41,638 nucleotides of DNA from Caldisericia bacterium (GCA_028700655.1 JAQVSG010000011.1:1-41638); one strand, 5' to 3'. Positions 26,673-41,625 are shown, counted from the stretch's first letter. Numbers and translations are program-made. Notes: generated from the sequence alone by a model not told the origin.

Positions 26673-29360
26673 TTATAAAGTTACATAGGAAATAGATATG
26701 TGTTTAAAAGTAGGATTCCATTCTACAGTTGTGCGAAATACTTCAGAAAGGAACCGCAAAGGAACTAGAGTACGGGAATTCATAATCATCGGGGGAGCGT
26801 CAAGGGTAACTGTAGTGGAAATACCATTCTGTTCGACAATGGCTTCTTTTTTACCGATGTATAGAATGACCTTACTATCACCTTGATAAAGTGTAATTTT
26901 ACGTGTTTTTGCATCCCAATCAATACTAACTTTCAGTGAATCTGCTAAGAATCGCAAGGGAACCATTGTTCGATTGTTGTAGATAATAGGAGGACTTTCT
27001 AGAGACATTGCTTCGTCGTTGATAAAAGCCCAGTAATTGTCAATCCAAAGATGAACTTCTGTAATGTTAGTAAATGTGATAAAACTTCGAATTTGTGCAA
27101 ATTGATTGTCTTTTTGGACAAGCCAGGCTAGGTTGTTGTTTCTACGATGGGATGAAAAATGACTGATGAAGCTATTCTTGCCAGTTTTGTCCAGAAGAAT
27201 TTCTTTCTGGTCTTCTATGAACCATATTTTATTTCCATTGGTTTGCCCTTGGCTAAAGTATGATCTTTTGGTAGTTTTTTCGTACAAAGGGATGTCCGGT
27301 CGGATATATAGGCCTAGATCTGATATTGTGATTCGACTATTGTTGGTTTCAAGAGAATAAGAATTTTGATGTGGGTTCATATATATTGCCTTGTTGAGGT
27401 AGAGTGTTGAAAACCCATTTTTTAACGTTTTGAAAGTGACAGAAGCAAGAACTCCTGTTCCATTCATACCTATTCGCTTACGCTCTCGAGAAATAGTAAT
27501 GGAGAGAACGTTGTCTTGCAAAGATGTTCGTATTTTGGGTATAACACCATCTTGAGAGAAGAACGAACCATATTGGTACTGATTTGGCTGTATTTCCAAA
27601 AAGGTTGGATCAAAAAGCAATTCTAGAAAAACAGAATCGGCATTAAGAAGGTTTTTCCCAATAACATCCACCGTAAAATGGGTATTTTTTTGCAAATGCC
27701 ATTGAGAAAAATTCAAAAAAGCTTTTTGGTTTTCTCCATACGGTAAAATCGTAAATCTAGGACAAAGAAAAACAGATTTAAAAGGACTCATTAAATGAAA
27801 TGAAATAGTATACGTGCTTGGGTATATGGAAGGTTTTGGCGTGATTTTAACAATGAATTCACCAGGAGTGGGTATTGTTTCAGGATATACAGATACTTGA
27901 AACAAATCTGTGTTGTAGTTACCAGGGTAGAGAGAAACTGAATCGGCAAAGCCAGCACTTTCCACAGAAATTGTAAAGTAGATATTTTCACCAAGGATCG
28001 CTGTTTTGTAGGGCTCATCCAAGGATGCTGAAAAGTTTCTACCAAAAGAAGAATTAAGCCTAGATGCTGGATCACCGTATAAATTGAAGGAATAGAAGTT
28101 TGCATAATCAAAACTACCCAGCTGTGAATACTTTTTCCAACATTCTTCAATAGCATTGTACAAAGCATCTCCGTAGCTTTGATTGCGAAGTGTGATATTA
28201 CGCACAATTAAATATAGTAATGTTTGATTTCCCCCATTTTGTAAAGACCGCCAGTCTATAGAATACCAGTTTACAGAAGTACCCCCAATGAAGCAACTAA
28301 AGCCATTTAATAAGGCCATTTTTCCCAAATTGGAGTCATGGGGGTATAAGTTTGAACAACACCCAGAAATAAACAAGCCATGATCTTGCGATATGGTATT
28401 GAATGAATTGATATCAAGGACGGTTTCTTCAACCAGCTCTTTTCTTTCGACTTTCCGATTGCTGTTCTTATCTTTGTCCCAAATTTTGGATATCAACTCT
28501 GTATGGGATCCGTGTCCTTCCCACAGAACCATATCAAAAGAGTTCTTTTCCAATAGAAATTCAAAATTTTTTTTCTTCAACGCATATTCTGCAGGGTATG
28601 TGGAGGGTTGTAGACCTCCTTTTTCTCCCATTCGATATGTGTTGTAATTAAGGGGTTTTAAGAGATCTTGAACAATGGATTCCGTCAAAGATGCCCCATC
28701 TGTTCTTTGGTCAATGAAATCCATTTGTTCTGTTTCTTCCATTGCATAGTTCAATATGGTAGAGCTTAACAAAGCTTTTTTCTGAGGGGGCTTGTTTTCA
28801 GTACGAATCATTCGATTGATAATGGTGGACACTTCTTGAGGAGTTTGAAATGGGATTCTCCCAACGCGAACTTCCGCATGAAAAGATATATTTTTATCTC
28901 CGATAAATTCTCCGGTGTAACCGTTTTGATTAACATCAAGATCGGAGTCTAGAGAGCAAAAGAAAAAATCGCTTTGAATGGTGTTGTATTTATATACACC
29001 TGAGTCTCTTGGATAGAAGGGATAGAAGGTTTCATAAGGAATGGTTTTTTCATCTCCTACAAGTACAACATAGCGGAGATTCCACGATTCGAATTTACTG
29101 ATTAAAAAATTGCGTATCTGATCTTGTTTTGTGGTACCTACATATTGATTAAAAATCTCTCCCGTTTCATAGTAGGCTGTTAGCAACCCTTGCTTTTGGC
29201 GGTGCTTGATGAGGGGGTGTAAAACGGTTGTTAATCCAGGAGGGGCAATGATTAAATAATCAACTTGTTCTTTTATGGCTCCTTTTGTTGGGGGGATAAG
29301 AAAAAACACATGGGCAACAAGAAGTCCACAAAGACATAATAATAGAAATTTATTTTTCAT
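26673..29360 (-). CDS. Secreted C25 (gingipain)-like cysteine protease with cohesin-like domain and C-terminal copper amine oxidase N-like domains
   Basis: Signal peptide; C25-like LRYVVLVGDEKTIPYE, VRVGRIPFQTPQEVSTIINRM, VLWEGHGSH (catalytic His region), GLFISGCCSNLYPH (catalytic Cys region), GFSCFIGGTSVNWYS; cohesin-like block HFTVDVIGKNLLNADSVFLELLFDPTFLEIQ...GTGVLASVTFKTLKNGFSTLYL; two CuAO-N-like repeats (NRTMVPLRFLADSLKVSIDWDAKTRKITL and SRTLVPLRFLSEVFRTTVEWNPTFKHISI). Confidence 0.8.
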   Translation of the reverse strand: MKNKFLLLCLCGLLVAHVFFLIPPTKGAIKEQVDYLIIAPPGLTTVLHPLIKHRQKQGLLTAYYETGEIFNQYVGTTKQDQIRNFLISKFESWNLRYVVLVGDEKTIPYETFYPFYPRDSGVYKYNTIQSDFFFCSLDSDLDVNQNGYTGEFIGDKNISFHAEVRVGRIPFQTPQEVSTIINRMIRTENKPPQKKALLSSTILNYAMEETEQMDFIDQRTDGASLTESIVQDLLKPLNYNTYRMGEKGGLQPSTYPAEYALKKKNFEFLLEKNSFDMVLWEGHGSHTELISKIWDKDKNSNRKVERKELVEETVLDINSFNTISQDHGLFISGCCSNLYPHDSNLGKMALLNGFSCFIGGTSVNWYSIDWRSLQNGGNQTLLYLIVRNITLRNQSYGDALYNAIEECWKKYSQLGSFDYANFYSFNLYGDPASRLNSSFGRNFSASLDEPYKTAILGENIYFTISVESAGFADSVSLYPGNYNTDLFQVSVYPETIPTPGEFIVKITPKPSIYPSTYTISFHLMSPFKSVFLCPRFTILPYGENQKAFLNFSQWHLQKNTHFTVDVIGKNLLNADSVFLELLFDPTFLEIQPNQYQYGSFFSQDGVIPKIRTSLQDNVLSITISRERKRIGMNGTGVLASVTFKTLKNGFSTLYLNKAIYMNPHQNSYSLETNNSRITISDLGLYIRPDIPLYEKTTKRSYFSQGQTNGNKIWFIEDQKEILLDKTGKNSFISHFSSHRRNNNLAWLVQKDNQFAQIRSFITFTNITEVHLWIDNYWAFINDEAMSLESPPIIYNNRTMVPLRFLADSLKVSIDWDAKTRKITLYQGDSKVILYIGKKEAIVEQNGISTTVTLDAPPMIMNSRTLVPLRFLSEVFRTTVEWNPTFKHISISYVTL

Positions 29361-29381: not shown

Positions 29382-30545
29382 TTAGCTGGATACAATAAAG
29401 ACTTCAAGAACTCGCTTATATTGCTCGCCGTATAATCTGAATCCTGTGTTTACAAAAATGTTATCGAATTGGACATAGGGTAATTTCGCTTTGGAAACAG
29501 TTTTAGCAACCCACTCCGAAGCTTTTACAGGGTCGCTCTCTGTGCGGAAAAGGGTGGAAGCAAAGCTTAGATAATTGGAGGAAAGTTTGTCAAACGAATA
29601 GTCTTGAGGTAATGTTTGGGATTTCGTAGCGTCTGTTTGAAAGATTACCCGATAGACTTCATGAGGGTTTTTTAAGTACAAACGACAGGTCAGCTCAGAT
29701 TGAGTGTCATCATCAAACATCCGACCATCGATCACCCAGTTTCCGGTGGAAACCATTTTGGGTTCTTCAAAGGTAAGATAGTAGGATTCACGTAACTGAT
29801 TCTGGAATTCCTGTACCTCTATTCCAGGAAGGGTGCTTGAGTGAGTAATTTTCATTTGGTCAATCATGTTCTGGGCTTTGGGAGTCAGGACAAGCATTTT
29901 TTCAAAATCTCGCATTGCTTTTTCAAACTCATTGTTTTGGAAGAAGTATTCTCCCCGTTCAAAATAAGCTTCGTTGAGAATTGTATCAATTTCAGGGGTA
30001 GGATTTAACTGTTTTGCTTGTAGAAGAATTTGAATTCCCTCGGTTAAATGGTTTTCTTCAATTAACAGTAGTCCCTCTTTATACAGATTTTCAAACTCTG
30101 AAAGATGGTTGCTTGTTTCACTATGGATGGGTTGTGAAGGTGGTTTTGAGAATAGTACTCTCCCAACCACAATGATTGCAATGATCAGCAACAAAGAAAG
30201 GACAATTGTAAAAATGGGATTTCTTTGGACTCTTTTTTTCCGTTGAAGTTGTTTTGGACAAGCAGATACGATGGTGGAAATAGTGGGTATTGATAGCAAC
30301 CATCGGTGAAGAGAAGTTACATCAGAAGGATGTACAGGCAAAGAAAGAAACTCTTTTTGTGTTCCTTCAAAATGAATCGTGATCGTTCTATGGTTTTCTC
30401 GTAGAATTTCTGAAAAGAAGATAGCCTGTGTTTCTTGTAAAGGGATGGAGTATTGTTTTTTTCCAATCCATGCAATGAGTGTTTCAGCCGTGGCCAACTG
30501 CAATCTACATTTTCTTTTCTGCGATCGAAAGGTAAACGTTTTCAT
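29382..30545 (-). CDS. Membrane-anchored TPR-containing protein of unknown function
   Basis: Cytoplasmic N-terminal domain, one TM (IFTIVLSLLLIIAIIVVGRVLF), then TPR-like repeats (FENLYKEGLLLIEENHLTEGIQILLQAKQLNP; AYFERGEYFFQNNEFEKAMRDFEKMLVLTP). Confidence 0.65.
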   Translation of the reverse strand: MKTFTFRSQKRKCRLQLATAETLIAWIGKKQYSIPLQETQAIFFSEILRENHRTITIHFEGTQKEFLSLPVHPSDVTSLHRWLLSIPTISTIVSACPKQLQRKKRVQRNPIFTIVLSLLLIIAIIVVGRVLFSKPPSQPIHSETSNHLSEFENLYKEGLLLIEENHLTEGIQILLQAKQLNPTPEIDTILNEAYFERGEYFFQNNEFEKAMRDFEKMLVLTPKAQNMIDQMKITHSSTLPGIEVQEFQNQLRESYYLTFEEPKMVSTGNWVIDGRMFDDDTQSELTCRLYLKNPHEVYRVIFQTDATKSQTLPQDYSFDKLSSNYLSFASTLFRTESDPVKASEWVAKTVSKAKLPYVQFDNIFVNTGFRLYGEQYKRVLEVFIVSS

Positions 30546-30638
30546 AGGTATTCTCTTTCATGGTATTGAAACATCTTCATTATACTCTAACATAGAGGTG
30601 TGCAAAATAAAAGTCCATGAATACTTGAGAGGTATATT

Positions 30639-31379
30639 ATGAAAGGCATTGTACTAGCTGGCGGGATAGGATCAAGACTTTTTCCTTTAACAAAGGCAAC
30701 AAACAAGACATTATTACCGATTGGTAGATTTCCAATGATCTATTATCCTATTATGAATATGAAGCAATGTGGTATTACAGAAATCATGATCGTGACAAAT
30801 CAACTGCATATAGGTGATTTTGCTTCTGTTTTTGGCTCTGGTTCTGAGTATGGAGTTCATATTGTATACGCGGTTCAGGAGAAAGCATTGGGAATTGTGG
30901 ATGCACTCAAGGAAGCAAGAGATTTTTCTTATGGAGACTCCATGATGCTTTTTCTGGGAGACTGTATATTTGAAAAACCTATTCATTATTTCCATACGGC
31001 GTATGTACAAAAGCAGAATGGAAAAGGGGCTCGAGTACTATTATACGAAGTGCCCGATCCAGAAAGATTCGGGGTTGCAACCATAGAGGGTGATTTAATC
31101 ACTGAGATTGAAGAGAAGCCAAAGTATCCAAAAAGTAATTTTGCAGTTGTGGGGGCTTACTTATATGATCAGACCGCATGGGATAAGATTCCCCACATCA
31201 CTCCTTCTGCACGCGGAGAATATGAGATTACTAGCTTGAACAATATGTACATCCAAGAGCGATCCATGCAATACGATGTAGTTCAGGGGAAATGGTTTGA
31301 TGCCGGTACATTTCAAACTTTACTAGATGCAGGGAGCGTTATGATGGAAGTTTATGACAATTCGCAAAAGGACCTTTGA
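30639..31379 (+). CDS. Short sugar-phosphate nucleotidyltransferase (RmlA-like)
   Basis: [84 protein letters not shown]; 246 aa. Confidence 0.9.
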   Translation: MKGIVLAGGIGSRLFPLTKATNKTLLPIGRFPMIYYPIMNMKQCGITEIMIVTNQLHIGDFASVFGSGSEYGVHIVYAVQEKALGIVDALKEARDFSYGDSMMLFLGDCIFEKPIHYFHTAYVQKQNGKGARVLLYEVPDPERFGVATIEGDLITEIEEKPKYPKSNFAVVGAYLYDQTAWDKIPHITPSARGEYEITSLNNMYIQERSMQYDVVQGKWFDAGTFQTLLDAGSVMMEVYDNSQKDL

Positions 31380-31452
31380 TTCAATATACTCATCGCCGAA
31401 AAGTTGTGTGGAATGCAGAGAAACGACACATTACGATGGATTATTGAACAGC

Positions 31453-33021
31453 ATGTTGAATCCAATTAAAAACACCTTCAATGCGCATAAATGGCAGGCC
31501 ACTTTTTTTATTGTTGCCTTTGTATTGTTCCTTGTTCTGGTAACCTATGCTTCTTCTGGTCCTTATATTGATGATCACTACTGGTATTTAGCAGACATTG
31601 AATCCATTCTTCAAGGGCGAGGTGTGCAATCCAACAATATATTTCCCATTGAAGCAATACAAGGCAAAGTAATCAACAACCCTCCTTTTGTGCACAATTC
31701 TCCATTTATCTATATAGCGGCTGTTTTAGGGATCTTTTTTGGGGCTTACAGTGGTTGGATCCTCTTGTCAATTCTTTGCAGTCTTCTTGCTGCATGGTTG
31801 ATATACAAAACCGTTTCATTGGTTGCCAATACTTCCAAAGCGCTGCTTGCAGGTGGTTTCTATTTGCTTTTACCAAGCACTATTTGGGTTTCTTCTGAGC
31901 TTATCGTAGAGGCTATGATAGCGCCCTTTATGGTTTGGATTGTGTATTTGTATCTATCTTCAAAAGATCGTTTTTTGCCTTGGATTTGGATGATTCTGAT
32001 GGCTGTTTTTGTTTCGATCACCAAGGCCAATTTTGTTTTGCTTCTAGCTATTATTCCTGGCGCCTACCTTGTTCATCACTGGCGTAAGAAGTTCTATATA
32101 TTGCGAACATTTGCTCTTGTTTTTGTCGCGATTATCACTTTTTTCGTTATAACCCCTTTGTTTCCCAACAATGCTGCTTCTTCGGAGAATGCCTTACAAT
32201 CTTATTTGAACATCATTCATGTGGGCGTACCCGGTAAAACAAGCAATATGGAATCGTATTTCAACATACATCCAACCAATTATAGCTTTGATGAATATGT
32301 AGAGAATTTGGTTCTGAAAACAAAAAAGAGCCTGCGCCTTCAATTATTGAATGTCAATCTGGACGGTATTGCCTTTTATATTCCCTTCAATATATTGTAT
32401 TTATTGTGTATCACAGGACTTTTTTTTTCAATCCGACGAAAGAAAAAGCTTGAAAAGAAATTGTATGGAGCAGCCATCGTCCTTTTTTTTGTTTATTTAC
32501 TTACGATCTGTCTCATGCAAAATCAGTTTCGATACATGCAAATGTTCTATCCCATCCCCCTAATTGGTGCTTTTGGTTATGCTTATCATAGGCATAAAGA
32601 GTTTCCAAAACATCAAAAGAAACAGTTATTCAATACAGTTCTCTTTTCCATTGTAACTCTGTTTCTTGTTTATATCAGCTTCACTCTTATTCAGCAACAA
32701 CGCGCATATGGGATTTCGGCAGCAGAACGATATCAGACATTTTCTGAATCGATACATTCTGTGCCTGCAACGGATGCTATTATGGTAGAGGGTATTAAGT
32801 ACTATACTTTGTATGGCTATGTGCTACAACCCAGGCGTGTTTTATATGTTATCGATTCGTATACCCAAAAGGACCTTGAAACGATAATGCGAAACGGAAG
32901 TGCTACGTGGCTTTTGTGCGAAGACTCTTCTCCCATTATTGATACATTGCATCTTCTTGGTACACCAAGGACACGACTACTTTCTCCTTTGGAAAATCTT
33001 GTACTAGTCAAACTTGAATAG
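31453..33021 (+). CDS. GT-C fold membrane glycosyltransferase-like protein (GT39/ArnT-like)
   Basis: About 10 hydrophobic segments; acidic motif in the first extracytoplasmic loop (ASSGPYIDDHYWYLADIESILQGRG). The ORF track start is 31354, overlapping the upstream gene; internal ATG 31453 judged more likely. Confidence 0.7.
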   Translation: MLNPIKNTFNAHKWQATFFIVAFVLFLVLVTYASSGPYIDDHYWYLADIESILQGRGVQSNNIFPIEAIQGKVINNPPFVHNSPFIYIAAVLGIFFGAYSGWILLSILCSLLAAWLIYKTVSLVANTSKALLAGGFYLLLPSTIWVSSELIVEAMIAPFMVWIVYLYLSSKDRFLPWIWMILMAVFVSITKANFVLLLAIIPGAYLVHHWRKKFYILRTFALVFVAIITFFVITPLFPNNAASSENALQSYLNIIHVGVPGKTSNMESYFNIHPTNYSFDEYVENLVLKTKKSLRLQLLNVNLDGIAFYIPFNILYLLCITGLFFSIRRKKKLEKKLYGAAIVLFFVYLLTICLMQNQFRYMQMFYPIPLIGAFGYAYHRHKEFPKHQKKQLFNTVLFSIVTLFLVYISFTLIQQQRAYGISAAERYQTFSESIHSVPATDAIMVEGIKYYTLYGYVLQPRRVLYVIDSYTQKDLETIMRNGSATWLLCEDSSPIIDTLHLLGTPRTRLLSPLENLVLVKLE

Positions 33022-33024
33022 GAT

Positions 33025-34761
33025 TTATGGAGTGGATAGATAGAAAAACACCCATCCTTCCTCTTTTCCTGCATGATTAAAATAGCGGAAGTCATGCACA
33101 ATTTCTACATGAACTGTTTGGTTGCCAAGTAATGGTGAGTAGTGATTGGTGAAGTGTTTTTCAAAATTGTTTTTAAAATGAGAAAACGATCCCTTTGGAT
33201 GCACAAAAAAGAAACAAACATACTCTTTGTTGTTAACCATTTTCAAGCACAATTCCCGACCGTTTTGTATTCCAAGCGAATGTAAGTGTTCATAGTAGTA
33301 AGGAGAATGTACCATCCAACCCTCGGGAAGAAGATGCAAATGGGGGAAGAAACTTGTTCTTGTCCAAGGAGAAACTGCTATATTCAATGTGGGAATTTGA
33401 GCAAAGTTTGTGTTAGCAGGGAAATGGTATATCATTGTGTTGGCAATTCTCTGATTGTATTGGGCTATTCTTTGTGTTTTATTGGTTTGAACAACACTTA
33501 AGTAACATATTCCCCCCAGCATGAAAACAATAATGATCACTGGGAAAGATTTGGGAATCCATGTAACCGATTGTTTTTTTTGAGGAAACAAAGAAAAAGA
33601 GAAAATCACGATGTAGAGAAAAGTTAATAAGGGATAGAAAACCCTTATTTGGTAGCGGATAAAAAGTAATCCTAAAGTGCAAAACAAGATATAAAGAACA
33701 AACATGGAGATAACAAAAGACTCATGTTTTGTTGAAGAACTCACAAGTATATTATTGTTCCGTTTTTCAGGCACACTGGAAGTAGTTTGAAAAAGAAAAA
33801 AGAGAAGAAGAATGAAAATCCAATGAAACAATGTAAATGGGAACTCTTTCCATCCATTTTCCCAATTCCAGAGTTTGAAAATGTCAAAATGTTGCTTGAT
33901 GAAGCTGCTCATTGTTGAATGATTATAGATTGTCTCATCGTGAGTCCACCAAGAGCCTAAAATATACATATCTTCTTCTGGAAATGACTGGACAACAGTA
34001 CTCTTTGGTATGTTTTTAAGGAAAGGTGTGTCAATAAGAAGACTTCTGTCTTTTTGTATTTTTTGATATTTGGTGGAAACTTCGTTATAAAAAGGTTCTG
34101 TGAATCCAATACAGAAAGAGAATGCAAGCAAGGGAATCATAACAAAAAGCAGCTTTTTTTTTGCTACGGTGGAACTTTTGAGAATAAAAAATACGATACC
34201 GGGCAGACTGATGATGAATGCAATCGGAAAAATGCTAGGCCTTGCAAGGATACTGGTTGCTAGGAGGAGTCCTATGAACTGAAAAGAAACCACATTCGTA
34301 TTGGGATGAAAAGAATTCCACACTAAGGAAGTGACTCCAATAAACCACAAAAAAAGGCTTAAGGAGGTGAAGCTTATCTGGAAAAAGAAAAAATTACAAA
34401 TGACAATAAAACCTGATATGGAAATGATTCTTGATGCATTGTTACGAGACATACAATAGAGAATTTTTATGCCTACAAATAGACCTATCGACTGAAACAC
34501 TAGAATGAATGAAAAAAGCCATGGGAAAGAAGGTATTTTTTGATAAAGGAAATAGAGAATGCTACTGAGAAGTGGCGATAAGAAAATACTATTTGGATGA
34601 GATATCCCATCAAATCCTCCCCGAAGGATTTCAACAATAGCTGCATCATCAGAGAAGAAGTATAAAAATGAATGGAAACATAGAAGAAGGCATAGGATAA
34701 AGATCGCAGTAATTAGAAAAGGAACTGTGTTCTCTTTGACGAGAAGTAGCTTTCTTTTCAT
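33025..34761 (-). CDS. GT-C fold multi-spanning membrane protein, putative lipid-sugar-dependent glycosyltransferase
   Basis: Multiple TM segments with early acidic loop YFFSDDAAIVEILRGGFDGISHPN, and a C-terminal extracytoplasmic domain; ATG at 34761 overlaps the aminotransferase stop as ATGA. Confidence 0.65.
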   Translation of the reverse strand: MKRKLLLVKENTVPFLITAIFILCLLLCFHSFLYFFSDDAAIVEILRGGFDGISHPNSIFLSPLLSSILYFLYQKIPSFPWLFSFILVFQSIGLFVGIKILYCMSRNNASRIISISGFIVICNFFFFQISFTSLSLFLWFIGVTSLVWNSFHPNTNVVSFQFIGLLLATSILARPSIFPIAFIISLPGIVFFILKSSTVAKKKLLFVMIPLLAFSFCIGFTEPFYNEVSTKYQKIQKDRSLLIDTPFLKNIPKSTVVQSFPEEDMYILGSWWTHDETIYNHSTMSSFIKQHFDIFKLWNWENGWKEFPFTLFHWIFILLLFFLFQTTSSVPEKRNNNILVSSSTKHESFVISMFVLYILFCTLGLLFIRYQIRVFYPLLTFLYIVIFSFSLFPQKKQSVTWIPKSFPVIIIVFMLGGICYLSVVQTNKTQRIAQYNQRIANTMIYHFPANTNFAQIPTLNIAVSPWTRTSFFPHLHLLPEGWMVHSPYYYEHLHSLGIQNGRELCLKMVNNKEYVCFFFVHPKGSFSHFKNNFEKHFTNHYSPLLGNQTVHVEIVHDFRYFNHAGKEEGWVFFYLSTP

Positions 34762-35894
34762 GAAGGATTGAAAAACATCTTGATATGGGAGCAAATATAC
34801 AGAATTTCTGTTTTAGTAAGGCCATAAAACATGGGAAGTCTCAGCAATCGAGAACTTTCTTTGGATGTGAAGTGGTCTTGTCCATGAAATCGTCCATATT
34901 TTTTTCCCGCGGGAGAAGAATGCAGCGGGATGTAATGAAAAACGGAATGGATTCCTTGTTTTTTTAGATAGTCCATGAGGGAGTTGCGTGTGTTTTCGTC
35001 CTTTGTTTTGACATAGAACATGTGGGCATTGTGCCGACATTCTTTAGGTACCGATGGTAAGGTCAGAAAACCTTTTTCTTGCAGCAACATTAGTTGGCTG
35101 TAATACAGATTCCAAGAATTCATGCGATCCGTAAGAATGGTTTTTTCTTCCATAAATTGACCAAAAAGATAGGCTGCACTCATCTCATTCAATAGATACG
35201 AGGAACCAAGATCGATCCATGTATATTTGTCAACTTCTCCACGAAAGAATTTTTCTCGATTGGTGCCTTTTTCGCGAATAATCTCAGCCTTCTCAATAAG
35301 AATGGGGTTGTTAAGTAGTATAGCTCCTCCTTCCCCGCAAGAATAGTTTTTGGTTTCATGAAAACTAAAACAACCGATGCTTCCTACAGTGCCTACATAG
35401 TTTCCATTGTAGGAAGATCCTACTCCTTGTGCAGCATCTTCAATGATGGGAATGTTGTATTTGTCACCGATTCGTATTATTTCATCCATATGGCAGGATA
35501 CACCTGCATAATGCACCACAACAATTGCTTTGGTTTTATCGGTGATAGCCGATTCAATGCATTGTTCGTTGATGTTCATTGTGTCTGGCCGAATATCAAC
35601 AAAAACCAACCGAACTCCCCACAGGGCAAAAGCATTCGCTGTGGAGGTGAAAGTGTAGGATGGAAGAACAACCTCGTCTCCTGGTTTTAGCTGAAGAATC
35701 AAGGAAGCCATTTCCAATGCATGCGTACCCGAAGGAGTGAGAAATGCTTTTTTGCATTGATACCGATCTTCGATCCATTGACAACATTTTTTGTTAAAGG
35801 GTCCATCACCAGAAAACTTTTGGTTTTGAAATACGACCTCTATGTATTTTTTTTCTTTTCCTGTTATGCAAGGTTTGTTGAATGGAATGTTCAT
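34758..35894 (-). CDS. wecE: dTDP-4-amino-4,6-dideoxygalactose transaminase (DegT/DnrJ/EryC1 family, WecE/RffA-like)
   Basis: IPFNKPCITGKEKKYIEVVFQNQKFSGDGPFNKKCCQWIEDRYQCKKAFLTPSGTHALEMASLIL..PGDEVVLPSYTFTSTANAFALWGVRLVFVDIRPDTMNI closely follows the WecE/RffA pattern as I recall it; PLP-Lys region FHETKNYSCGEGGAI. Confidence 0.85.
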   Translation of the reverse strand: MNIPFNKPCITGKEKKYIEVVFQNQKFSGDGPFNKKCCQWIEDRYQCKKAFLTPSGTHALEMASLILQLKPGDEVVLPSYTFTSTANAFALWGVRLVFVDIRPDTMNINEQCIESAITDKTKAIVVVHYAGVSCHMDEIIRIGDKYNIPIIEDAAQGVGSSYNGNYVGTVGSIGCFSFHETKNYSCGEGGAILLNNPILIEKAEIIREKGTNREKFFRGEVDKYTWIDLGSSYLLNEMSAAYLFGQFMEEKTILTDRMNSWNLYYSQLMLLQEKGFLTLPSVPKECRHNAHMFYVKTKDENTRNSLMDYLKKQGIHSVFHYIPLHSSPAGKKYGRFHGQDHFTSKESSRLLRLPMFYGLTKTEILYICSHIKMFFNPS

Positions 35895-35914
35895 AGAATC
35901 CGTCCAATCTATTT

Positions 35915-36250
35915 TTAAAGCGTGAAAATAAAAATTCCTATTACAATGACAATAGTTCCCAAAAGGGTTTTTTTTGAGACTCTTTCTTTAAGAATAACAG
36001 TGCTTAAAAACAATACAATGATATATCCCAGTGACTGAATAACCGGTCCTTCTTTAAGGGGAATACTTTTGTACGCAAGGATGGTTAGAAAGGAAGATAA
36101 AAAAAGGAAAATATAGGCTACCATCACAAGTGGATTAACATATTCTTTGAATTTGGATGCATGATGTTTGTTGGCACTCATTTTTAGCAATATCTGGCAA
36201 TGAGCAGCAATAATGACGGCACATGTGAAAAGAATATATGGATTAATCAT
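35915..36250 (-). CDS. Four-TM EamA/SMR-like half transporter (ArnE/ArnF-like), subunit 2
   Basis: 111 aa, four hydrophobic segments; AYKSIPLKEGPVIQSLGYIIVLFLSTVILKERVSKKTLLGTIVIVIGIFIF; start overlaps previous stop (ATGATTAA). Confidence 0.72.
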   Translation of the reverse strand: MINPYILFTCAVIIAAHCQILLKMSANKHHASKFKEYVNPLVMVAYIFLFLSSFLTILAYKSIPLKEGPVIQSLGYIIVLFLSTVILKERVSKKTLLGTIVIVIGIFIFTL

Positions 36251-36611
36251 GGTTTTGAAACACTATATAGATGCCTATGCTTATAACCACAGCACCTACG
36301 ATATTATAGAGGGAGATTGTTTCATCAAAAAGGAAAAGGGAACCCATAAATGTCCATAAAAAAATAGCTCCTCTATTGGCATAAGCTATAGAAAGATCCA
36401 TTTTTTTCAAGACTTGTTGCCACAGCACTGCATATACAATGAGAAGTACAAATTCAATACCGTACAAGAGATAGAAATGAAAGGAAGAAAGGGAATGATT
36501 TGATGCCAGTTTTGCAAATATACCAGAAAGAGAAAATAGAAAAAGAGAAAAATGCAGGAAGAAAAAATCGTGAGAAAACCTTTTAACTGAAAATTTGTGA
36601 TGCCTTATCAT
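36243..36611 (-). CDS. Four-TM EamA/SMR-like half transporter (ArnE/ArnF-like), subunit 1
   Basis: About 122 aa from ATG 36611 (ATGA overlap with upstream stop); WQQVLKKMDLSIAYANRGAIFLWTFMGSLFLFDETISLYNIVGAVVISIGIYIV. Confidence 0.72.
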   Translation of the reverse strand: MIRHHKFSVKRFSHDFFFLHFSLFLFSLSGIFAKLASNHSLSSFHFYLLYGIEFVLLIVYAVLWQQVLKKMDLSIAYANRGAIFLWTFMGSLFLFDETISLYNIVGAVVISIGIYIVFQNHD

Positions 36612-37504
36612 GATAGATTGTGAAAGTGGTAAAGGTCGAATACATGGAAGGGTTGAAAATGAAGTTTTTGCCATACTTTTTGGACAGACAGGTTATGAAT
36701 TTGTGTGGATACTGTCACAACAGAAACAGACTTTTGGAAAGAATCATGCAATACATGTTTGCACAACACCTCATATATACCTCTTTGGCGGAAATGAGGA
36801 GAAACTGCATTTAACACAATGTCTGTAGAAGAAAGTGAATCCACGGTTGCAATAAAACCTGTTACAGTAGAAGAATCCATGTGCGTGTAAATAGCACTGT
36901 TGTCTGCCCGGGATAAGGTATCAATCCATTCGATGTATACTTCAGCCGAGAGAGGCCGTAGTAAAGGAGATAGAGAGTAGTGGCTTTCATAGTTCTGAAA
37001 GGATTCTTCGGTTATTTTTCGTAACATTGTTTTCGTAGCAGGAGTACTATTGTTTTTTGATACATTCTTTTGAGGAAGATGCGAAGCCTGGGGAATGATG
37101 CCGTAACATATGGTTGAATCCATGTAAGTATATTCAGGCCCTTTTTCTATAAGGGCACTTTTGATGAAAGGAAATTCCTTGGGAACTCGCAATATGTAAT
37201 ATCCTTTTTGGTTTTTTGCTAGGGTTTGAATGTAGGCGATGGCATCTTGATAAAAAGGATATAGAGACTCGTCAAAAGGATCCACATGATCAAAACAAAA
37301 GCTGATTCCAAAAATAGGAAATTGGTAAAGAATGGAAAGATTTTCAATGTTGTACCACCGTACCCCAATTTTATGAGTATTGGAAGATGTTAGAAAATGG
37401 TAGGAAGAGCTCTTCTTTTCAATTTCTTGAGAAACGATGGAAGGTGAATGTAAAAAAATGTTTTCTGCAAGGCGGTTTTTTTGATCTATATAGGATCGTT
37501 TCAC
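36608..37504 (-). CDS. GNAT-family N-acetyltransferase, WecD/RffC-like (putative dTDP-4-amino-4,6-dideoxygalactose N-acetyltransferase)
   Basis: C-terminal GNAT block DIVLNAVSPHFRQRGIYEVLCKHVLHDSFQKSVSVVTVSTQIHNLSVQKVWQKLHFQPFHVFDLYHFH; operonic with wecE, rmlA and rmlB. Confidence 0.75.
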   Translation of the reverse strand: MKRSYIDQKNRLAENIFLHSPSIVSQEIEKKSSSYHFLTSSNTHKIGVRWYNIENLSILYQFPIFGISFCFDHVDPFDESLYPFYQDAIAYIQTLAKNQKGYYILRVPKEFPFIKSALIEKGPEYTYMDSTICYGIIPQASHLPQKNVSKNNSTPATKTMLRKITEESFQNYESHYSLSPLLRPLSAEVYIEWIDTLSRADNSAIYTHMDSSTVTGFIATVDSLSSTDIVLNAVSPHFRQRGIYEVLCKHVLHDSFQKSVSVVTVSTQIHNLSVQKVWQKLHFQPFHVFDLYHFHNLS

Positions 37505-38439
37505 TTGGAATCATCTTTTTTAAGGGAGGTATATTTTTTTTTAACGATAGTGAAGGGGCGATCTTTTGTTTCTGTAAAAACCTTGGAAAGATATATTCCG
37601 ATCACTCCTACAAACAATATTATAATGCCCCCTAAGAGCCATACAGAGGCAATGAGAGATGTCCATCCTTCCACGCTACGTCCAAAAAGAAAATAATTGA
37701 ATACAAGTAAGGCTACGTATAAAAAAGAAAAAAAGGTAATGAATAAGCCTGTGTTAAAAATGAAAAGAAGGGGTCTACTGCTGAACGATGTAATAGAATT
37801 AATGGCCAGCTGGAGTTTTTTCTTCAAGGAGTACGTAGAGCTTCCTTTTGAGTGCTTCTGTGCAAGAAAGGGAGTTTGCTTATACCCGGTATAATAAAAA
37901 ACGTTGTCAAGAGAAAGTTCTTGTTCCCGGAATTGTAGAAGTCCTTCAACGTAGTCTCTTTTCATTAATCGGGCAATAAAAATATTTTCTGGAATTCTTT
38001 CTTGAATGATGTAATTTCGAAAGTTGTAAAAAAATTGTCCGGAACATCTCTCAAAGTAGTTTCCTTTTCTTTTCTTTTGAACACCATAGACAACATCACT
38101 GTCTGTTTCTAGCATTTTGGTATAAAAAGGAAATAGAAGTTCTGGTTCTTCTTCTAAATCGCAATCGATTAAAAAAACCAAATCGCCTGAGGATTCCTTT
38201 AAACCTGTCATGATAGCTTTGTGATGCCCAAAGTTGCGAGATAAATCTAACACAATAATAGAAGGATCTTGTTGCATCAAAGTTTTTGCAACTGCAAGAG
38301 AGGAATCTGGCGAACCATCGTTTACAAAAACAATTTCATAGTCATTCGTTATCTGACAGATTTGAGGGTGGATTCGAGAATAAAATTCTTGCATGTAGCT
38401 ACTGGAATAATAAAGAGTTGTTACTACAGATAATTTCAT
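37501..38439 (-). CDS. GT2 family polyprenyl-phosphate glycosyltransferase (ArnC/GtrB/DPM1-like) with two C-terminal TM segments
   Basis: [76 protein letters not shown]; two C-terminal TM helices then FTETKDRPFTIVKKKY. Confidence 0.88.
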   Translation of the reverse strand: MKLSVVTTLYYSSSYMQEFYSRIHPQICQITNDYEIVFVNDGSPDSSLAVAKTLMQQDPSIIVLDLSRNFGHHKAIMTGLKESSGDLVFLIDCDLEEEPELLFPFYTKMLETDSDVVYGVQKKRKGNYFERCSGQFFYNFRNYIIQERIPENIFIARLMKRDYVEGLLQFREQELSLDNVFYYTGYKQTPFLAQKHSKGSSTYSLKKKLQLAINSITSFSSRPLLFIFNTGLFITFFSFLYVALLVFNYFLFGRSVEGWTSLIASVWLLGGIIILFVGVIGIYLSKVFTETKDRPFTIVKKKYTSLKKDDSK

Positions 38440-39488
38440 AATTCACCATGAAAGGAGGACCATTTGGAGTATTTTTGAAGGTACCATTTGATAGTAGCCA
38501 TAAGGCCTTTTTCAAACGATGTCTCTGAGCGCCATAACAAGTCTTTTTCCATTTTGCTTGCATCAATGGAGTATCTTGTGTCATGGCCTGGGCGATCAGG
38601 AACGAACTGTATATGAGTGCTTTCTTGAAAAGAAAAGCGTTTTTCTGGGTCGAACGAATCGACGAGACGACATATGGAGCGAACCATTTCGAGATTGGTT
38701 TTTTCGTTTCGACCACCTATGAGATACGAATGACCCAGCTGCCCTTTGTGAAAGGCTACATCGATACCCTTGCAGTGGTCTATTACATAAAGCCAATCCC
38801 GGATGTTGTTTCCAGCTCCATAAATAGGGATTGGTTTTCTGTCAAGATAATGCCGGATGATGGTGGGAATAAGTTTTTCATCATGTTGCTTCGGACCATA
38901 GTTGTTGGAGCAATTGGTGATAATGATAGGCAAACCATAGGTTTTGTAATAACTTCTTACAATCATGTCCGCACTAGCTTTGGAAGCACTATAGGGGTTG
39001 TTAGGTTTGTACGGAGAGTTTTCTGTGAAATAGCCTTCGGGCCCCAAACTACCAAATACTTCATCGGTTGAAATGTGATGAAATCGACAAGATGTATACT
39101 GCGTGCGAAGCTGAAAAGGCGCTTGTAACCAAAACCTTCTTGCTACTTCTAGCAAGGCATGAGTTCCGTTGATGTTGGTACCAATAAACGAGCTAGAATC
39201 GTCAATAGATCTATCAACATGAGACTCTGCTGCAAAGTGAATAACATATTGAATTTGAAATTTTTCGAAAAGGGATTTTACCAACGAAACATCTTGAATA
39301 TCTCCTTGAAAGAATCGATAGCGAGGGTGATTGTGGACTTCTTTTAAATTCTCTTGGTTTGCTGCATAGGTTAGTAAGTCAAGATTTACCACTGTATAAA
39401 AAGGATATTTATCAAGGAAGTACGGAATAAAGTTGGAGCCAATAAAACCGCATCCCCCTGTAACTAGAACCGTAGAAGGTTTCTTCAT
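38436..39488 (-). CDS. rmlB: dTDP-glucose 4,6-dehydratase
   Basis: [99 protein letters not shown]. Confidence 0.95.
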
Positions 39489-40405
39489 AACAGGAAGGAC
39501 TCTTCGGTAGTAGGCATAGGATGAAAAGATGAAGATTTTGGGGTGGTAGCGGTAGCTACTAAATATTCTCCATAGGAGCTGTTTTTCATGGAGTTGGCAA
39601 TATCCAATAAAGAGGCTTTATCTATATAGTTCATGTAGTAAGCAATTTCTTCAAGGCAGGCAATTTTAAATCCTTGGCGCTTTTGTATGGTTTCAACAAA
39701 TAAAGAAGCCTGCAAAAGAGAATCAAAAGTGCCTGTATCTAACCACGCAAAACCACGTCCTAAAACCTTCACTTGTAGTTGATTACGGGAAAGATAAATA
39801 CGGTTGATGTCGGTAATCTCTAGCTCTCCCCTTAGAGAAGGCTTGAGTGATTTCGCCAAGGATACCACCTGAGGGTCATAAAAATACAAGCCAGTGATAG
39901 CAAGGTTGGATTTTGGTACCGATGGTTTTTCTTCAATAGAAATAGGCTGGTGAGAACTATTTAGTGCAACAATCCCAAATTGAGAAGGATTTCCCACCTG
40001 ATACGCAAAAACCAGTGCTCCCGTATGCAATTGAGAAGCTTTTTGGAGGATTGGAGTAAAGGATTGACCATAAAAAAGATTGTCTCCTAAAATCAAGCAT
40101 ACTGTGTCATTGCCTATAAAGTCCTCAGCTATCAAAAAGGCCTGAGCGATGCCTTTTGCAGATTCTTGCATTGCATAAGAAAGGCGGATTCCCCATTTTT
40201 CTCCGCTTCCGAGTAATTGTTGGAATTGAGGGGTGTCTTGTGGAGTGGAAATAATTAAAATGTCTCGAATACCTGCAAGCATAAGTACAGAGAGGGGATA
40301 GTAAACCATGGGCTTGTCGTATATGGGAAGCAGTTGCTTTGATACTGCCGGAGTAATCGGTTGTAATCTTGTCCCACTTCCTCCTGCAAGAACAATGCCT
40401 TTCAT
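39485..40405 (-). CDS. rmlA: Glucose-1-phosphate thymidylyltransferase
   Basis: [101 protein letters not shown] at 40405 has SD aggag; the ORF track start 40450 is too far upstream. Confidence 0.94.
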
Positions 40406-40598: not shown

Positions 40599-40772
40599 AT
40601 GAATTTTTTTAAAGATGAATCTGGACAGACGATTTTAGAGTATGCATTGATTATTGCGGTACTAGTGTTAGTTATTATTGCGGCTGTTCCTAGTCTCAGA
40701 AATTCTGTGACAGGTGTATTTTCCAAGACACAAAGCGGATTGGATAGTGCACCAACGATTCCTACTACCTAA
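40599..40772 (+). CDS. Flp/Fap-type class III pilin (57 aa)
   Basis: Strong SD gaaggagg (40585-40592). Translation MNFFKDESGQTILEYALIIAVLVLVIIAAVPSLRNSVTGVFSKTQSGLDSAPTIPTT. Prepilin cleavage signature G/QTILEY with E at +5 and Y at +6, followed by a hydrophobic helix. Missing from the ORF track because it is under 60 aa. Confidence 0.88.
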   Translation: MNFFKDESGQTILEYALIIAVLVLVIIAAVPSLRNSVTGVFSKTQSGLDSAPTIPTT

Positions 40773-40866: not shown

Positions 40867-41625
40867 ATGCGTATTTTTTCATGGAATGTGAATGGTATTC
40901 GTGCGGTTATAAAAAAGGGATTTTTCCAGTGGATGGACAAAGAAAACCCTGATATTGTCTGTTTGCAAGAAATCAAAATACATGGTGATCAGGTAACTCC
41001 CGAAATTAAAGACAAAGAAGGGTATCAATCCTATTTCTTCTCTGCCCAAAGAAAAGGGTATAGCGGAGTGGCTGTGTACTCGAAAGTACCTCCCCAGGAA
41101 GTTCACTATGGATTTGGAGAGCCTGCTTTTGACGAAGAAGGACGCGTTTTGCACTTACAATACCCCGATTTTCACCTTGTCAATGTATATTTCCCCAATG
41201 GCAAAAGAGATGATATACGACTGCAATACAAATATGATTTTTATCAGTCATTGCTCGACTATTTACGTCCGTTTCTACAAAACAATGAAAAAATGATTGT
41301 TTGTGGAGATTACAATACAGCTCACCAAGAAATTGACCTGGCGAGACCAAAGGAAAATAAAAACATCTCTGGGTTTTTACCCGAAGAACGAAAATGGCTT
41401 GATCGGTATTTATCCGAAGGCTTTATTGATACATTCCGATCGCTGCATCCAACAAAAATTCAATATTCATGGTGGAGTCATTTTGCACGGGCAAGAGATC
41501 GAAATATTGGGTGGAGAATTGATTATCATTTCGCCTCCTTGGCTTTACAGAAAAAGATAAAAAAAGCGGAAATTCATGACATGGTGCAAGGGTCAGATCA
41601 CTGCCCTATTTTGCTGGAGATCTGA
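40867..41625 (+). CDS. Exodeoxyribonuclease III (AP endonuclease, Xth family)
   Basis: MRIFSWNVNGIRAVIKKGF, DIVCLQEIKI, VYFPNGKRDDIRLQYKYDF, CGDYNTAHQEIDLARP, GWRIDYHFAS, GSDHCPILLEI. Confidence 0.94.
   Translation: MRIFSWNVNGIRAVIKKGFFQWMDKENPDIVCLQEIKIHGDQVTPEIKDKEGYQSYFFSAQRKGYSGVAVYSKVPPQEVHYGFGEPAFDEEGRVLHLQYPDFHLVNVYFPNGKRDDIRLQYKYDFYQSLLDYLRPFLQNNEKMIVCGDYNTAHQEIDLARPKENKNISGFLPEERKWLDRYLSEGFIDTFRSLHPTKIQYSWWSHFARARDRNIGWRIDYHFASLALQKKIKKAEIHDMVQGSDHCPILLEI

Follow-up and report, generated by a model that had tools for sequence, protein, structure and literature searches.

Whether the genes of a single operon could make an amino sugar, link it to a lipid, flip it and transfer it outside the membrane is the question raised by a locus of a Caldisericia bacterium (GCA_028700655.1, JAQVSG010000011.1:1-41638). 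The window, that is the whole stretch of 41,638 nucleotides that was analysed, contains eight consecutive genes on the minus strand (33025-40405). A preliminary description had read them as a route by which undecaprenyl-phosphate-linked 4-acetamido-4,6-dideoxygalactose (Und-P-Fuc4NAc) is made, flipped and transferred. We consider it probable that the operon is a self-contained glycosylation system that uses a donor linked to undecaprenyl phosphate, with final transfer by a GT-C enzyme outside the membrane. The sugar module, the GT2, the split pair and the polytopic enzyme are indeed joined in one operon, which upholds that part of the earlier reading; its ArnT and its WecD proper are not supported.

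In the proposed pathway RmlA and RmlB would produce thymidine diphosphate (dTDP)-4-keto-6-deoxyglucose, which WecE would aminate to dTDP-4-amino-4,6-dideoxygalactose (dTDP-Fuc4N). The GNAT protein would acylate this product, most likely to dTDP-Fuc4NAc, and the GT2 would pass the sugar to undecaprenyl phosphate. The split EamA/SMR pair may then flip the lipid-linked sugar, presumably outwards, as ArnE and ArnF do, leaving the final polytopic GT-C enzyme to transfer it to an acceptor outside the membrane.

Organization of the operon

The eight open reading frames (ORFs) were read from the sequence exactly where the preliminary description had placed them, and form the compact operon that it proposed:

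39485-40405, minus strand: RmlA, glucose-1-phosphate thymidylyltransferase, 306 residues, predicted to give dTDP-glucose (TIGR01207; identity to RffH)
38436-39488, minus strand: RmlB, dTDP-glucose 4,6-dehydratase, 350 residues (TIGR01181; identity to RffG)
37501-38439, minus strand: GT2 polyprenyl-phosphate glycosyltransferase, 312 residues, two C-terminal transmembrane helices (PF00535; GtrB/ArnC structures)
36608-37504, minus strand: GNAT N-acyltransferase, distantly WecD-like, 298 residues, GTG start, predicted substrate dTDP-Fuc4N (PF00583)
36243-36611, minus strand: EamA/SMR half a, putative ArnE-like half flippase, 122 residues (sub-threshold PF00892 and ArnE; homologous neighbourhoods)
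35915-36250, minus strand: EamA/SMR half b, putative partner half flippase, 111 residues, four transmembrane helices (PF00892)
34758-35894, minus strand: WecE/RffA, dTDP-4-keto-6-deoxyglucose 4-aminotransferase, 378 residues (TIGR02379, NF008687, PDB relatives, motif)
33025-34761, minus strand: polytopic membrane protein, 578 residues, at least nine transmembrane helices, predicted GT-C of an unnamed family (homologues near wecE; D38-D39 and R373)

Four of the five ATGA overlaps first described are present (39485-39488, 38436-38439, 36608-36611 and 34758-34761). The junction at 37501-37504 reads GTGA, the start codon of the GNAT gene being GTG. The 8-bp overlap ATGATTAA between EamA halves a and b (36243-36250) and the 20-bp gap ahead of wecE (35895-35914) are both seen as described. 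The RmlA start at 40405 (MKGIVLAGG) agrees with that of RffH and was chosen over a longer ORF. The arrangement is beyond chance, since the gene order recurs in three Bacillaceae and the wecE and GT2 genes show an excess on the same strand (see below).

The nucleotide-sugar enzymes

Protein families were scored against Pfam and NCBIfam models with their curated cut-offs. RmlA reaches 459.8 bits with TIGR01207 (cut-off 360.65) and is 61% identical to E. coli RffH; the only other close RmlA in the assembly is a shorter paralogue at 30639. RmlB scores 444.9 bits with TIGR01181 (cut-off 365.1) and is 47% identical to E. coli RffG. Both identities proposed at the outset are thus borne out by the curated models. 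The aminotransferase, which is 55% identical to E. coli WecE, exceeds the cut-offs of both TIGR02379 (583.6 against 434.85 bits) and NF008687 (584.1 against 375 bits). Its nearest PDB structures are those of WecE (4piw/4zah and 6blg), far above ArnB and other DegT enzymes. The SFHETKN motif around the pyridoxal phosphate lysine, shared with E. coli WecE, is exact in 78 of 82 WecE rows, differs at a single position in the other four, and is missing from all 29 other DegT loci examined in related genomes. The WecE scores, structures and motif therefore disfavour a 3-aminotransferase or VioA-type enzyme, the finding that the preliminary description had named as contrary to its WecE assignment.

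Synthesis of dTDP-Fuc4N is a well supported prediction, since RmlA, RmlB and WecE all exceed their curated cut-offs. No match to RmlC was found in the assembled genome, which is 88.6% complete, so that gene absences are provisional (positive controls were detected in 11 of 14 genomes). Diversion of the dTDP-keto-sugar to rhamnose is unlikely because RmlC was not found. As a separate observation, the WecE ORF of one related locus (L107:10001-11812) has about 600 residues, suggesting fusion to a second domain of about 220 residues.

Predicted lipid loading and the split EamA/SMR pair

The GT2 belongs to Glycos_transf_2 (PF00535), and its best NCBIfam models are PgfS (184 bits) and ArnC (115 bits), both under the cut-off. 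The best PDB match is GtrB sll0501 (E=3e-43), followed by ArnC. The protein shares 49% identity with a GT2 encoded close to wecE in a Melainabacteria locus (L108), and it is the only significant GT2 of such a kind in the assembly. By these matches it is a GtrB/ArnC-type polyprenyl-phosphate glycosyltransferase, and the structural relatives support the ArnC-type assignment made earlier.

EamA half b passes the Pfam EamA model (PF00892, 37.9 bits) and half a is sub-threshold; the ArnE and ArnF NCBIfam scores of the two halves are at most 27.1 bits against a cut-off of 92. Hydropathy gives three transmembrane helices for half a and four for half b. In the alignment the column of EmrE E14 holds Phe in half a and Ala in half b. 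Glutamate is also absent there from ArnE and ArnF, and lipid SMRs are reported to lack the central glutamate often (PMC9574504). The motif 'WQQ..K....AYAN' marks half a and 'SQ.LLK.SA.K' half b, and the same two types occur in many loci. Homologous half-a genes adjoin GT2 or wecE in many loci, and the 8-bp overlap of the halves is repeated in four (L036, L056, L106 and L107). As judged from sequence, the two small proteins are a split EamA/SMR pair like ArnE and ArnF that lacks the central glutamate of EmrE. At the gene level the recurring pair supports the split flippase of the preliminary description, the direct matches to ArnE and ArnF being weak.

Conservation of the locus

A search with WecE returned 80 loci, which have flanks of unequal length and are phylogenetically clustered, many of them in Lachnospiraceae, so that the following counts are not independent. 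In 34 of the 80 loci wecE has an ArnC-like GT2 with two transmembrane helices on its own strand no more than 2.5 kb away; in one locus such a GT2 is on the opposite strand. EamA halves are found in 17 loci, in 13 of them together with the GT2, and in 11 loci a homologue of the last membrane protein is encoded no further than 2.5 kb from wecE. The order RmlA-RmlB-GT2-GNAT-EamA-WecE-membrane protein is kept in three Bacillaceae operons, from Alteribacillus, Virgibacillus and Ornithinibacillus (L031, L074 and L109). It is with exactly these three that the window WecE groups in a quick tree (SH-aLRT support 86, on a long branch). Loci that truly encode enterobacterial common antigen (ECA) synthesis (L077 and L099) look quite unlike that of the window.

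The linkage is thus kept in homologous loci, as the preliminary description had proposed to check. The operon is real, conserved and mechanistically coherent, and has close variants in Bacillaceae and many Clostridia, so it is no isolated invention. The earlier statement that the gene set had not been described as one system fits the open-access literature searched, with the qualification that such variants exist. That the linkage is shared by Bacillota, Actinomycetota, Myxococcota, Melainabacteria, Chloroflexota and the lineage of the window suggests a common, unrecognized route.

The acyltransferase and the last membrane protein

Three points of the proposed pathway are least secure: which acyl group is added, whether the last gene encodes a GT-C and, most of all, what the acceptor is. 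The acyltransferase passes a single family model, Pfam Acetyltransf_1 (PF00583, E=5.5e-5). With its low-confidence structural model (predicted local distance difference test, pLDDT, 62) as a Foldseek query, WecD 2fs5 ranks second, and its template-modelling score (TM-score) of 0.69 by target length is the best among the top matches, the input alignment of the model having held WecD sequences. Homology evidence for this protein is limited to first-round profile matches; later rounds drifted into RimJ/PseH-type GNATs and were dropped. As a query it found no relatives in the genome contigs or plasmids. Proteins at the same operon position in the Bacillaceae are also GNATs, and the Ornithinibacillus counterpart aligns over nearly the whole WecD model (E=6e-8). 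Elsewhere the acyltransferase slot near wecE holds a PseH-like GNAT, a hexapeptide protein or WbqC. One WbqC-family protein, with a possible acyltransferase role, stands beside a GT2 near wecE (L081:2809-3492), and a similar ORF lies at L108:8366-9070. N-acylation of the sugar by the GNAT is likely from these comparisons, and acetyl is our best guess for the acyl group.

The last protein matches no Pfam or NCBIfam model, and none of 15 homologues matches Pfam. Hydropathy predicts at least nine transmembrane helices. The pair D38-D39, which follows the first helix in the first outer loop, is invariant in 16 homologues, as is R373, and homologues lie beside wecE in Lachnospiraceae. DUF6044 and a second GT-C-like protein of the window were tried as profile relatives, and neither shows similarity. 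The best assignment is that the protein is probably a GT-C of an unnamed family. The polytopic final enzyme foreseen in the preliminary description accordingly keeps its GT-C features (the helices and the acidic first loop) and loses its identity as ArnT.

Several observations weigh against the pathway as proposed. The GNAT reaches 25.8 bits with the WecD model NF008212, whose cut-off is 219, and so fails widely; the WecD/RffC assignment made at first is reduced to a GNAT that is WecD-like at a distance. In the alignment, the column of E. coli WecD Y208, which we take to be the general-acid tyrosine, holds Trp in the window GNAT and its Anaerocolumna homologue; the Bacillaceae GNATs have Phe or Val there. 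Given the low WecD score and the Trp, the GNAT could use another acyl group, or even another substrate, than WecD does. Profile comparison of the last protein with ArnT reveals no similarity (hhalign probability 0.1%). The model of this protein is modest (pLDDT 65), and its Foldseek matches to GT-C enzymes are non-significant (DPY19, probability 0.87 and E=0.13; ALG12 and Pmt4, TM-score about 0.4). The Bacillaceae operons contain a single EamA half and end in a DUF6044 gene in two cases (L031 and L109) and a similar-looking gene in L074. Finally, the linkage of the sugar to undecaprenyl phosphate is one that we infer.

The DUF6044 genes in the place of the GT-C gene (L031:11122-12840 and L109:11070-12782) may themselves encode lipid-linked sugar transferases; no paper on DUF6044 was found in the open-access literature.

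Alternative explanations

It is somewhat unlikely, and by no means negligible, that the final sugar is Fuc4N with an N-acyl group other than acetyl, or unacylated Fuc4N, the GNAT being no true WecD. The WecD score, the replacement of the general-acid Tyr by Trp and the wide variation of the acyltransferase slot between loci favour this, whereas the rank and best target coverage of WecD 2fs5 in Foldseek (with the reservation on its input alignment) and the near full-length alignment of the Ornithinibacillus counterpart argue for acetyl. The nucleotide-sugar and lipid-sugar genes might instead serve separate products, the GT2, EamA and GT-C proteins using uridine diphosphate (UDP)-glucose or UDP-N-acetylgalactosamine. 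The donor specificity of the GT2 is unreadable from its sequence and its best NCBIfam model is PgfS, under the cut-off. The closeness of wecE and an ArnC-like GT2 on one strand in many lineages makes this improbable, as does the lack of any labelled WecF, WzxE or WzyE homologue in the window. An ECA-like pathway, in which the operon would form part of a repeat-unit route on undecaprenyl pyrophosphate, shares RmlA, RmlB, WecE and a WecD-like protein with the window. A GtrB/ArnC-type GT2 and a split EamA pair are present instead of its later steps, and no WecA, WecB, WecC, WecF, WecG, WzxE or WzyE is labelled near the wecE of the window, so that we give this explanation very little credence.

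The remaining alternative concerns the acceptor, which could be a cell-wall polymer or other secreted polysaccharide rather than the pilin discussed below; its likelihood falls only a little short of even. Known three-component systems mostly modify polysaccharides such as teichoic acids and O-antigens (PMC11127046; PMC7389260). In Lachnospiraceae and Olsenella the homologous loci have further glycosyltransferase-like and membrane genes around them. No match to LpxC was found in the genome, which makes lipid A an improbable acceptor. Against a polysaccharide acceptor, the glycosylation genes lie in an island between a C25 peptidase gene and the pilin gene, and no polymer-assembly cluster was recognized in the annotated flanks.

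Comparison with known systems

The literature covers ECA, Arn and three-component systems (PMC7439462; PMC11127046; PMC9574504). In the ArnC-ArnE/ArnF-ArnT system, which adds 4-amino-4-deoxy-L-arabinose (L-Ara4N) to lipid A in E. coli, a GT2 likewise loads a 4-amino sugar onto undecaprenyl phosphate, two SMR-type half flippases are encoded by adjoining genes, and a polytopic final enzyme belongs to the same operon. The sugar differs, being UDP-Ara4FN there and presumably dTDP-Fuc4N(Ac) here; the window operon has no ArnA or ArnD, its last enzyme lacks ArnT similarity, and its genome lacks a detected LpxC. ECA synthesis has the same four-enzyme route to dTDP-Fuc4NAc (RffH, RffG, RffC/WecD and WecE; PMC7439462), with 47-61% identity for three of the enzymes. 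There WecF adds Fuc4NAc to a disaccharide linked to undecaprenyl pyrophosphate and WzxE flips the product (PMC7439462), whereas neither protein is encoded in the window operon.

The GtrB/GtrA/Gtr three-component systems also combine a polyprenyl-phosphate sugar synthase, a flippase and a membrane glycosyltransferase, GtrB being the nearest PDB structure to the GT2. Their flippase is GtrA or a MATE protein, whereas a split EamA pair is present here and the sugar would be made within the operon (PMC11127046; PMC7389260). Genes for a GtrB-type GT2, a flippase and a membrane glycosyltransferase, the combination that defines such systems, are linked in the window, the GT-C nature of the last member being predicted. 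The operon is thus a variant of three-component lipid-linked glycosylation: the category is known, and the combination of an ECA sugar with an Arn-type flippase is new. The open-access papers searched describe no system in which Fuc4NAc is attached to undecaprenyl phosphate and a split EamA pair is present. Fuc4NAc is familiar chiefly as a component of ECA, in whose synthesis an oligosaccharide carried by undecaprenyl pyrophosphate receives it within the cell; a single Fuc4NAc carried on undecaprenyl phosphate and added outside would, if true, be a new use of the sugar. With this pathway, a membrane family that Pfam does not yet model would gain a provisional function, and DUF6044 a suggested role.

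The closest functional parallel is the TfpW pilin arabinosyltransferase cassette of Pseudomonas (PMC11841053; PMC12369383), in which a polytopic GT-C also lies beside a pilin gene. It differs in its type IVa pilin and D-arabinofuranose, as against a Flp/Tad-type pilin, a putative target, and a predicted Fuc4NAc-type sugar here.

Genomic context and the candidate acceptor

The preliminary description had overlooked both the pilin gene next to the operon and the island in which the operon lies. The surroundings of the operon contain the following genes:

40599-40772, plus strand: Flp/Fap-type (Tad) pilin, 57 residues, Ser/Thr-rich tail, candidate acceptor (PF04964, E=3.4e-7, 30.4 bits against a cut-off of 32.2)
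31354-33021, plus strand: second predicted GT-C-like membrane protein, 555 residues, convergent with the operon (PMT_2 sub-threshold, E=6e-4; eight transmembrane helices by hydropathy)
30639-31379, plus strand: RmlA-like nucleotidyltransferase paralogue, 246 residues, adjoining the second GT-C-like gene (PF00483; under the TIGR01207 cut-off)
26673-29360, minus strand: C25 (gingipain-type) peptidase, a copper amine oxidase N-terminal domain lying towards its C-terminus (gene conserved beside Flp in relatives)

The Flp gene is divergent from rmlA, 193 bp away, and its product is 73-74% identical to short Flp proteins encoded in two relatives of the same family (G003 and G004). In both relatives Flp and the C25 peptidase gene point away from each other across a gap of about 225-240 bp, and a PmbA/TldD pair follows, oriented relative to them as in the window. 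In the window, C25 and Flp are 11.2 kb apart, separated by a TPR gene, the RmlA paralogue, the second GT-C-like gene and the operon; some 11 kb of glycosylation-type genes (29382-40405) thus lies between them. The simplest reading is that the glycosylation genes were inserted at the Flp locus, the alternative being loss in G003 and G004. The sister genome G001 holds the left part of the island, with a syntenic copy of the RmlA-like paralogue (72% identical) and a fragment of a second GT-C-like homologue at the same syntenic place. Its contig ends in this gene and the right part restarts in an exonuclease gene. The absence of WecE from G001 had been considered as proof of lateral gain and was discarded as such, the operon region being unassembled there.

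A Tad operon on another contig of the window's genome encodes a ParA-type ATPase, a T2SSE ATPase, two T2SSF proteins and TadE. In the tail of the window Flp, 7 of 16 residues are Ser or Thr, compared with 2-3 of 16-17 for the three short Flp proteins of G003 and G004, an enrichment that is only suggestive given the few sequences compared. The Flp/Tad pilin is the best candidate for the acceptor, as yet unproven. The fuller proposal, that a lipid-phosphate-linked Fuc4NAc system glycosylates this pilin and came as a mobile island between Flp and its old neighbour, its GT-C belonging to a family absent from Pfam, we regard as unlikely overall.

A Pfam search had made the window Flp appear to be the only one in the genome. 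A protein search corrected this, finding four further Flp-like N-termini on larger ORFs. ORFs of about 240-375 residues with such N-termini occur on contigs C120, C102 and C45 of the genome G000 (L150, L153 and L157) and may be minor pilins or secreted proteins of the Tad system. At the far end of the window, the last 37 residues of the exonuclease (41512-41622) are repeated with 100% identity at the end of contig C42, which probably continues the contig of the window.

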